Origin: Acidocella sp.
GTDB lineage: Bacteria > Pseudomonadota > Alphaproteobacteria > Acetobacterales > Acetobacteraceae
Direction of reading: 5' to 3'
DNA: 64,000 nt
Assembly: GCF_027352905.1 (NCBI RefSeq)
Contig: NZ_DAIEIF010000028.1
Span: 1-64,000 of the forward strand
Shown here: positions 52,942 to 55,179 of the stretch, piece by piece
Layout of the letters: each line of letters opens with the position of its first letter
Position numbering within the stretch: position 1 is the stretch's first letter
The notes under the pieces: generated by a model
Database searches by the model: none
The model's input: only the letters and a program-made list of their open reading frames with translations
Told to the model about the DNA's origin: nothing
Position numbers and translations under genes: made by a program

Positions 52942-53907
52942 ATGGCTGAGACGAGAAAAACCCGGGTGTTGATCATCGGCGCGGGCCCGGCGGGCTACAC
53001 CGCGGCCATCTATGCCGCCCGGGCCAATCTCGCCCCGGTGCTCATCGCCGGGCTGCAACCGGGCGGCCAGCTCACCATCACCACGGATGTCGAGAATTAT
53101 CCCGGTTTCGCCGCTCCCATCCAGGGTCCCTGGCTGATGGAGCAGATGGCCAAACAGGCCGAGCATGTCGGCACCGAGATCATCTACGATCTGGTCACGG
53201 GCGTGGATTTCTCCGCCCGGCCCTTCAAGGCCCGCACGGATGGCGGGCTGGTTTTCGCGGCGGAGAGCGTCATCATCGCCACCGGCGCGCAGGCGCGCTG
53301 GCTCGGCCTGCCCTCGGAGCGCAAATTCATGGGCGCCGGCGTCTCGGCCTGCGCCACTTGCGACGGGTTTTTCTTCCGCGGCAAGGAGGTGGCGGTGATC
53401 GGCGGCGGCAACACGGCGGTGGAGGAGGCGCTCTACCTCACCCATCATGCCCGCCACGTCACCCTCATTCACCGGCGGGATACGCTGCGCGCCGAGCGCA
53501 TCCTCCAGCAGCGCCTGTTCGAGAATCCAAAAATCTCGATCGTCTGGGATCACACGGTCGAGGATATTCTGGGCGGCGGCACGCCGGAGGCGGTCACCGG
53601 GCTGCGCCTCAAGCACACCGTCACCGGCGAGACGCGGGACATGGCGGCGCAGGGCGTGTTCATCGCCATCGGCCATTCTCCCAGCACCGCCCTCTTCACC
53701 GGCCAGCTGCAAATGGACGCGGAGGGCTATGTCGTCACCCGGCCGGGGACGACCGAAACCTCCGTGCCGGGCGTCTTCGCCGCCGGCGACGTGCAGGACA
53801 AGGTTTTCCGCCAGGCCGTCACCGCCGCGGGCACGGGCTGCATGGCCGCGCTCGAGGCGGAAAAATTCCTCGATCATCTTCCCCTGCACGTCAACGAGGC
53901 TGCATAA
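52942..53907 (+). CDS. trxB: Thioredoxin reductase
   Basis: 321 aa. FAD motif IIGAGPAGYTAAIYAAR, active-site pair Cys137/Cys140 in ACATCDGFFF, NADPH motif VIGGGNTAVEEALYL and C-terminal GVFAAGDVQDKVFRQAVTAA. It transfers electrons from NADPH to thioredoxin. It is followed after 3 bp by a LysR regulator gene, the arrangement seen around lsrB in rhizobia. Confidence 0.96.
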   Translation: MAETRKTRVLIIGAGPAGYTAAIYAARANLAPVLIAGLQPGGQLTITTDVENYPGFAAPIQGPWLMEQMAKQAEHVGTEIIYDLVTGVDFSARPFKARTDGGLVFAAESVIIATGAQARWLGLPSERKFMGAGVSACATCDGFFFRGKEVAVIGGGNTAVEEALYLTHHARHVTLIHRRDTLRAERILQQRLFENPKISIVWDHTVEDILGGGTPEAVTGLRLKHTVTGETRDMAAQGVFIAIGHSPSTALFTGQLQMDAEGYVVTRPGTTETSVPGVFAAGDVQDKVFRQAVTAAGTGCMAALEAEKFLDHLPLHVNEAA

Positions 53908-53910
53908 ATC

Positions 53911-54822
53911 ATGGCCGGACAAAAAATGGATTGGGACAAGCTTCGGGTCTTCCACGCGGTGGCCGAGGCGGGCAGCTTCACCCATGCGGGGGATGTGCTC
54001 AATCTCAGCCAATCCGCCGTCTCGCGGCAGATCTCCGCGCTGGAGGAGGCGCTTGGCGTGCCGCTCTTCCACCGCCACGCGCGCGGGCTGATCCTCACCG
54101 AGCAGGGCGAGACGCTCTACCGCACGGTGCGCGACGTTTTCGCCAAGCTGGCGATGACCGAGGCGATGCTCGCCGAAAGCAAGGAAAAACCCGCCGGCCG
54201 CCTCAAGGTGACCACCACCCATAGTTTCGGCGTGGTCTGGCTGGCGCCCCGGCTGAAAACCTTCCTCAACCAATATCCCGAGGTTTCAATCTCGCTGCTG
54301 TTGGACGATACCGATCTCGACCTCGCGATGCGTGAGGCGGATGTCGCCATCCGCATGCATCCGCCCCGCCAGCCCGATCTCGTGCAGCGCCACCTCGCGG
54401 AGATCCGCATGCAGATCTGGGCCTCGGAGGAGTATGCGCAGGCTCATGGCCTGCCGCAGACGCCGGATGATCTGGACAATCACAAGCTCATCCTCTTCGG
54501 CGACCGCAAGCCGCCAGTGCCGGATGTCAACTGGCTGGGCGAGCTCGGCCGCAAGGATGGCACGGCGCGGCGGGGCATGCTGGAGGTGAACTCCCTCCAG
54601 GCGATGCTGACCTGCATCCGCAGCGGCCTGGGCATCGGCACGGTGCCCGATTACCTGCTCACCGACACGGCCGGGCTGGTCCCGGTGCTGCCCGATGTCA
54701 AAAAACCCACGGTGGATATGTATTTCGTCTACCCGGAAGAGTTGCGAAACTCCAAACGCATCTCCGTCTTCCGTGACTTTTTGGTGAATTCCATTGCTGA
54801 ACGCAACGGGATAAGGCCATGA
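53911..54822 (+). CDS. lsrB: LsrB/VtlR-type LysR regulator
   Basis: 303 aa. N-terminal helix-turn-helix AGSFTHAGDVLNLSQSAVSR, QISALEEALGVPLFHRH, then an effector domain (THSFGVVWLAPRLKTFLNQY) with VNSLQAMLTCIRSGLGIGTV. No Cys like those reported in redox-sensing LsrB variants is certain beyond Cys in LTCIRS. Known for the family: LsrB/VtlR control oxidative-stress and symbiosis or virulence genes, and VtlR/LsrB activate AbcR-class small RNAs in rhizobia and Brucella. Being coupled to trxB and followed by a candidate sRNA supports the call. Confidence 0.85.
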   Translation: MAGQKMDWDKLRVFHAVAEAGSFTHAGDVLNLSQSAVSRQISALEEALGVPLFHRHARGLILTEQGETLYRTVRDVFAKLAMTEAMLAESKEKPAGRLKVTTTHSFGVVWLAPRLKTFLNQYPEVSISLLLDDTDLDLAMREADVAIRMHPPRQPDLVQRHLAEIRMQIWASEEYAQAHGLPQTPDDLDNHKLILFGDRKPPVPDVNWLGELGRKDGTARRGMLEVNSLQAMLTCIRSGLGIGTVPDYLLTDTAGLVPVLPDVKKPTVDMYFVYPEELRNSKRISVFRDFLVNSIAERNGIRP

Positions 54823-54923
54823 AATGGCTGATTTCCTCGATTTTTTCCGGCCTCTGGAACAAAGAGTTACAGAAAATCAACTACATTAAGATTTTAACAC
54901 TTAAAAAATCCGGGGATGTGTCC

Positions 54924-54929
54924 TATATA
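54924..54929 (+). promoter_or_regulatory. Candidate -10 of the sRNA gene
   Basis: TATATA stands 7-12 bp before the start of the first conserved hairpin, in an AT-rich stretch (54880-54935) after the GC-rich lsrB gene. No good -35 hexamer is at 17 bp, which would fit dependence on an activator. Position and composition only. Confidence 0.4.
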
Positions 54930-54930
54930 C

Positions 54931-55039
54931 AACATATCCGGTTCGAGAGAACTGGATGGGACTTCGGTCCCACGTCTCCCAGACGTGAAGCCTCCCTGTT
55001 GACTTGACCCGCTGGCCATGGGCTGGCGGGTCTTTTTTT
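54931..55039 (+). ncRNA. Candidate small regulatory RNA downstream of lsrB (AbcR-like?)
   Basis: Four perfect or near-perfect stem-loops follow one another: ATCCGGTTC-GAGA-GAACTGGAT (54936-54957, GNRA loop, one G-U), GGGAC-TTCG-GTCCC (54958-54971, UUCG loop), ACGTCT-CCC-AGACGT (54972-54986), then a single-stranded GAAGCCTCCCTGTTGACT containing CCTCCC (anti-Shine-Dalgarno), and the terminator at 55006-55039. No ORF fits. The loop CCC and the CCTCCC stretch could pair with ribosome sites, as in AbcR and other alphaproteobacterial sRNAs. An LsrB/VtlR-type gene lies directly upstream, and VtlR/LsrB control AbcR RNAs elsewhere. Identity as AbcR is inference; the structured RNA itself is strongly supported. 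Confidence 0.75.
55006..55039 (+). terminator. Strong intrinsic terminator of the candidate sRNA
   Basis: GACCCGCTGGCC-ATG-GGCTGGCGGGTC makes a 12-bp stem (including two G-U pairs) directly followed by seven T (55033-55039). This is the best intrinsic terminator in the window and marks the 3' end of the RNA. Confidence 0.95.
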
Positions 55040-55076
55040 GCCGGGTCCGGGCTTCCGGCGCCGGGCGATATCCGTT

Positions 55077-55179
55077 AGAGCGTTCTCATTCCCTTCGGTT
55101 CATGGAAACGCTCTGACGATGATCTGGACCAGCAACTTTCTCTATCAAATGAGTCCATTTGATGGGATGCCGCTCCAGC
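55077..55179. repeat. Dispersed palindromic repeat, copy 3
   Basis: AGAGCGTTCTCATTCCCTTC and CATGGAAACGCTCTGACG form the first hairpin (AGAGCGTTTC-like arms). The second part has CAGCAACTTTCTCTATCAAAT, then GAGTCCATTTGATGGGATG, ending CCGCTCCAG. It closely follows copy 2 over about 100 bp. It lies between the sRNA terminator and bioF. Confidence 0.75.

Follow-up and report, generated by a model that had tools for sequence, protein, structure and literature searches.

The AbcR small RNAs (sRNAs) have mostly been studied in rhizobia, Agrobacterium and Brucella, and LsrB is known as a redox-responsive regulator in rhizobia. In Sinorhizobium meliloti, the order of the locus is trxB, lsrB, two ar15 RNAs and arsR, a place of AbcR 3′ of trxB-lsrB and ahead of arsR that is also described in the literature (PMC3712013). 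A second rhizobial genome likewise carries trxB, lsrB and two ar15 RNAs. Removal of the LsrB motif GCAT-N3-TG-N3-T of S. meliloti abcR1 lowers promoter activity more than 22-fold, and binding of LsrB to this motif was seen by gel shift (PMC8844928); the same element has been proposed for VtlR (PMC7486931). In Brucella, AbcR carries the motif M1 (CUCCCA) in one of its loops and a second one, M2 (GUUCCC), in the stretch between hairpins (PMC5461406). Two further sRNAs are relevant here. SorX is an RNase E-processed 3′-UTR sRNA of RSP_0847 in Rhodobacter, and acts as a repressor of potA, which belongs to a polyamine ABC transporter (PMC9438474). suhB/MmgR takes part in the control of polyhydroxybutyrate (PMC8844928).

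The window analyzed here, i.e., the whole stretch of 64,000 nt of Acidocella DNA, carries on its (+) strand trxB, lsrB and a predicted sRNA, in this order. The first gene of the locus, trxB (52942–53907, +), codes for a thioredoxin reductase (TIGR01292, 411.6 bits, above the cut-off) and is followed by an lsrB/vtlR-type LysR regulator gene (53911–54822, +; Pfam HTH_1 and LysR_substrate), an order that is the same in relatives and in S. meliloti. The helix-turn-helix (HTH) of the window LsrB is nearly identical to that of LsrB orthologues encoded beside AbcR, through to rhizobia, and the protein shares 48% identity with the regulator of one rhizobial trxB-lsrB-AbcR locus. The predicted sRNA gene (54935–55039, +; ~105 nt) lies in the non-coding gap directly 3′ of trxB-lsrB, and its 5′ end is probably near 54935. 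Hence it adjoins an lsrB/vtlR gene that is itself 3′ of trxB, as AbcR/ar15 does. An earlier note on this DNA had placed an sRNA gene with an anti-Shine-Dalgarno (anti-SD) sequence beside lsrB, a proposal that gains support from the rhizobial AbcR1 and AbcR2, which occupy the same place.

The RNA drawn in that note, with three hairpins closed by GNRA, UUCG and CCC loops, a CCTCCC stretch and a seven-T terminator, is present in full. A 5′ hairpin with a GAGA (GNRA) loop (54936–54957, +), predicted from sequence and fold, forms a lineage-variable domain, the number and sequence of 5′ hairpins varying among relatives. It is followed by the hairpin GGGAC-UUCG-GUCCC (54958–54971, +) and by the core hairpin ACGUCU-CCC-AGACGU (54972–54986, +), whose loop region contains CUCCCA, the M1 motif of Brucella AbcR. 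The second motif is CCUCCCUGUU instead of GUUCCC; this single-stranded sequence (54991–55000, +; CCTCCC at 54991–54996) is the proposed seed for pairing with ribosome-binding sites (RBS). Finally, an intrinsic terminator (55006–55039, +) combines a 12-bp stem (55006–55032) and seven T (55033–55039). The RNA is indeed highly structured: its minimum free energy (MFE) is −53.8 kcal/mol versus −34.4 ± 3.6 for shuffled sequences (z −5.46), and none of 200 shuffles was as stable. In the MFE fold of the window, GGGA is paired with the CUCCC stretch. This fold was set aside as the functional one, and the UUCG hairpin originally drawn was preferred, because compensatory changes preserve GGGNC-UUCG-GNCCC in relatives (stem variants GGGUC/GACCC, GGGAC/GUCCC, GGAUC/GAUCC and GGUUC/GAACC); a UUCG hairpin of at least 5 bp occurs in 75% of 154 distinct loci versus 19% after shuffling. 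The alternative pairing of GGGA, the 5′ arm of the UUCG hairpin, with CUCCC of the seed (54958–54996) may act as a self-masking switch.

The core hairpin and the seed are both part of an invariant 27-nt core, GUCUCCCAGACGUGAAGCCUCCCUGUU (54974–55000, +). Among 60 class-wide lsrB loci, which represent almost 60 alphaproteobacterial families, 34 have this core 3′ of lsrB with no more than three substitutions, and 23 of these have it without any change. In the majority of the families covered, it lies ~200 nt 3′ of lsrB (median of 211 nt over all loci). In an alignment of 57 diverse sequences (A1), CCUCCCUGUU is nearly invariant, and the core hairpin is paired in 96.8% of cells with few changes. 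The terminator helix, which was entered by hand in A1 (RNAalifold recovered the core hairpin only), shows two-sided changes at all eight of its eight pairs, a score reached by none of 500 shuffles; the 72% paired in this helix is a lower bound, because some A1 sequences are out of register there. Compensatory changes, whose lack the earlier note had taken as a refutation, are found in the UUCG hairpin and the terminator helix, and the proposal therefore stands on this point. An invariant, partly unpaired core between covarying hairpins thus follows the pattern of a base-pairing sRNA.

A covariance model (R1) was built from A1, a model from homologous loci being what the earlier note had suggested. 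R1 gives the window sRNA 75.4 bits (E 1.4e-22, whole-genome search) and has matches in 208 of 387 Alphaproteobacteria genomes (E ≤ 0.001), whereas in a sample of the phylum the matches outside this class were five weak ones (E 1e-4 to 1e-3). Within the window's genus, 34 of 37 genomes have a match to the sRNA. Conservation of the core family is far beyond chance, the 27-nt core being almost unchanged across about half of the sampled Alphaproteobacteria. Carriers among the matches listed include Azospirillum, Roseomonas, Reyranella, Thalassospira, Kiloniella, Inquilinus, Magnetovibrio, Caedibacter and others, and lsrB is upstream at 87 of 120 core sites among the matches listed in named genomes, with 12 more sites too close to a contig end for a decision. 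At E ≤ 1e-10, both the RNA and LsrB are found in 162 of the 387 genomes, the RNA only in 12, LsrB only in 75 and neither in 138, which amounts to an odds ratio of 25 by a statistic that ignores kinship.

Several genomes harbor multiple copies, among which G239, G400, G049 and G013 have two to six R1 matches each; no lsrB was detected in G049, G239 and G400, and copies away from lsrB resemble AbcR duplicates. The core RNA, which the tested rhizobial genomes lack, is present on a metagenome-assembled contig labelled Rhizobium sp. Q54 (L162), a label that may be wrong. Two loci without the core (L086 and L096) carry, ~150–400 nt 3′ of lsrB, an LsrB palindrome (e.g., GCTATGC-N7-GCATGG) that is followed by a longer stretch rich in C (CTCCCC, CTCCTCCCC) and then by a terminator; this may be yet another RNA at the lsrB locus. 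At L069 (positions 1313–1408), a long near-perfect inverted repeat 3′ of the sRNA led to spurious Rfam matches to microRNA precursors.

Ahead of the sRNA, CTTAAA (54900–54905) and CTATAT (54923–54928), separated by 17 nt, form a promoter-like region (54900–54928, +) that resembles the alphaproteobacterial promoter CTTGAC-N17-CTATAT (PMC8844928). The promoter had been described as −35-less, which is doubtful since CTTAAA stands at the right distance and is conserved in the genus. The upstream elements conserved in the genus are cTTAAa and TGTGGC.TATATACAACA, and both promoter boxes are conserved. The second element, around the −10 box (54918–54934), contains a loose inverted repeat TTGT...ACAA and may be the site of another regulator.

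An LsrB-type palindrome, YATGC-N7-GCATR, precedes the RNA at 89 of 117 loci outside the window's genus (76%, versus 1.4% in shuffled sequences), with a spacer of 7 nt in 88 of these 89. The same arrangement, GCGATGC-N7-GCATGGCTG, lies upstream of S. meliloti abcR1 and includes the GCAT-N3-TG-N3-T element. The palindrome can persist at copies of the RNA that are not beside lsrB (L158 and L186). It was found at none of 33 loci of the window's genus, nor near the RNA in the window. Judging from these sites, control of the RNA by LsrB is well supported for the family, but lacks support in the lineage to which the window belongs. Two perfect palindromes at other places of this genome were judged to be background. 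One is within a long reading frame that looks by eye like a dihydrouridine synthase; the other, GCTATGC-N7-GCATGGC, occurs in the gap behind a phasin-like frame (L267 position 253; G000 contig C13) and could be due to chance.

The seed CCUCCCUGUU is complementary to AACAGGGAGG. In the same 67 RNA-bearing genomes, AACAGGGAGG-N3-9-ATG occurs at 169 sites versus 100 for the control ACAAGGGAGG, which has an equal composition and the same AGGGAGG. With at most 30 loci taken per search, 30 sites were sampled, one per genome, and start codons were set by the pattern rather than by annotation. At 22 of these sites an ORF of 80 aa or more begins, and 13 of the 22 ORFs code for substrate-binding proteins: DctP (L276, L288, L290, L299, L300 and L305), Peripla_BP_6 (L280 and L287), SBP_bac_8 (L292 and L294), OpuAC (L293), SBP_bac_5 (L298) and TctC (L302). 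Three more of the 22 code for an OprB porin, a TonB-dependent receptor and a citrate transporter. The control was followed by binding proteins in none of 25 ORFs (24 scanned, the remaining one starting like RecA; Fisher p 3.5e-6). In 25 RNA-less genomes, 28 ORFs followed AACAGGGAGG; three of them code for binding proteins, and each of the three belongs to the rhizobial family f156. Rhizobial genomes without R1 and with AbcR or relatives show these three genes among 7 ORFs, and RNA-less non-rhizobial genomes show none among 21 (13/22 versus 0/21, p 1.4e-5). Binding-protein genes might favor such leaders for another reason. No ATG start of the ACAGGGAGG type, the nine-base complement, was found in the window's genome; across its genus, the nine-base search mostly returned non-genes, and none of the ten ORFs that were scanned codes for a binding protein.

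Taken together, we regard it as likely that the RNA is an lsrB-locus anti-SD sRNA, AbcR-like in its action, that would silence uptake genes via their RBS. LsrB would activate transcription of this trans-acting sRNA of ~105 nt, which would probably be assisted by Hfq (an hfq gene is present) and would expose a C-rich anti-SD sequence, namely CUCCCA at a hairpin loop and, above all, the unpaired CCUCCCUGUU. The latter would pair with AACAGGGAGG-type RBS of mRNAs encoding periplasmic substrate-binding proteins of the TRAP, ABC and tripartite tricarboxylate classes, resulting in a lower nutrient uptake. Sequence comparison supports the structure, its deep conservation, the linkage to lsrB, the operator in most lineages and the enrichment of binding proteins at seed-complementary starts; we infer transcription, activation by LsrB, use of Hfq, repression and any role in the window's organism. 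The view that the RNA is this lineage's counterpart of AbcR thus stood as regards the locus, the LsrB boxes at most homologues and the predicted transporter targets; in the window's genus, given the missing box, control by LsrB is unproven. That the RNA of this genus was rewired, being constitutive or under another regulator and having different targets while keeping its core, is a serious possibility that falls just short of an even chance. The operator is absent at the 33 loci of the genus despite an unchanged LsrB HTH, and the 9-nt complement marks no binding-protein starts among the genus ORFs examined; yet the pattern test counts exact matches only and was run on small, partly incomplete genomes, and LsrB may bind a degenerate site. 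Regulation and targets may therefore have changed in this genus, with the core retained.

How does the predicted sRNA of this locus relate to described RNA families? Rfam 15 at gathering score returned only a tRNA within the window, and no family accepts the sRNA. The search with the AbcR (alpha-r15) model that the earlier note had called for gave no match: ar15 (RF02345, gathering 40 bits) did not hit 54820–55120 even at E ≤ 10, nor the whole genome, although it gave 110 and 107 bits in S. meliloti and 127 bits in G407 as positive controls. Reciprocally, R1 found no match at the AbcR loci. Membership in ar15/AbcR is hence rejected by covariance-model scores in both directions, the motifs agreeing in part, and the sRNA is, as far as these models tell, an RNA family distinct from AbcR and not listed in Rfam. 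A search of open-access full text retrieved no sRNA paper containing the core sequence, which is also absent from the main text of a study on Azospirillum brasilense sRNAs (PMC7685610).

The RNA could still be a true AbcR orthologue diverged past recognition, i.e., both would go back to a single lsrB-linked RNA, the 5′ part and seed of which took a different course in rhizobia, a reading that agrees with ours on function, differs on ancestry and strikes us as somewhat doubtful but far from improbable. It would account for the same locus, the same type of operator and the common architecture, with CUCCCAG at a hairpin loop, an unpaired second C-rich motif and a terminator. However, ar15 misses the window and R1 misses the AbcR loci, C-rich motifs arise easily, and no intermediates toward AbcR were seen, since ar15 matched none of 144 genomes of the class (one sample). 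A common ancestor of the new RNA and AbcR is plausible because locus, operator and loop motif are shared. We tentatively propose, with slightly more reserve than conviction, that much of the class Alphaproteobacteria inherited from its ancestors a module of LsrB and an sRNA that restrains nutrient uptake, with the core family as its dominant RNA and AbcR as a derived rhizobial version.

The best sub-threshold Rfam match is SorX (RF02784), with 26.9 bits for the window against a cut-off of 46.6, and up to 44.1 bits in twenty relatives, still below gathering; suhB/MmgR (RF00519) gives 26.4 bits against 41 (36 bits in the best relative) and SorY (RF02651) 20.7 against 111. Given that SorX is an RNase E-processed 3′-UTR sRNA, the RNA might lack its own promoter and mainly be derived from the 3′ UTR of the trxB-lsrB mRNA, in the way that RSP_0847 gives rise to SorX in Rhodobacter. 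Read-through from lsrB is likely because no terminator stands in between. Nonetheless, such an origin is improbable, as the genus-conserved −35/−10-like elements point to an own promoter, and as elsewhere the operator lies upstream of the RNA and is kept at L158 and L186 without an adjoining lsrB. That the RNA amounts to no more than a terminator plus residual structure at the end of the lsrB transcript, and does not act in trans, is very improbable: it does hold the sole terminator detected from lsrB to 55250, but this explains neither the invariant 27-nt core, nor the copies away from lsrB, nor the matched target set.

In Rhodospirillales-like lineages, among them Azospirillum, Thalassospira, Reyranella and Roseomonas, a different and far more widespread RNA seems to fill the slot of AbcR. 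The present analysis supplies a covariance model that is ready for use, names an operator and offers a few targets that can be tested, and the replacement or rebuilding of an sRNA at a fixed regulatory locus becomes a directly testable question.

Compared with known systems, the new RNA is closest to AbcR1 and AbcR2 of Sinorhizobium, Agrobacterium and Brucella, with which it shares a locus directly 3′ of trxB-lsrB, an operator of the LsrB/VtlR type (in the new family, this holds for most lineages), a pair of C-rich anti-SD motifs, of which CUCCCA(G) stands at a hairpin loop and the other is unpaired, a terminator, and mRNAs of transporter binding proteins as targets, which are predicted in the case of the new RNA. 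It differs from them in sequence as a whole, by its second seed, CCUCCCUGUU instead of UUCCCCUC, by its 5′ and 3′ hairpins, by its usually single copy at the locus where AbcR is in tandem, and by the operator missing in the window's genus. SorY resembles the new RNA by CCUCCCUGUUGGACUU ahead of a terminator, and reportedly affects a metabolite transporter (Adnan et al. 2015, as cited in PMC8625941). The likeness to suhB/MmgR, which shares an Rfam clan with ar15, consists of a hairpin, CUCCCU...GACUU and a terminator. Finally, SorX of Rhodobacter sphaeroides has a hairpin, then CUCCCUGUUG, then a terminator, but the 3′ UTR that gives rise to it belongs to an ompR-type gene and not to the lsrB locus, whereas the gene upstream of the window RNA codes for a LysR regulator.
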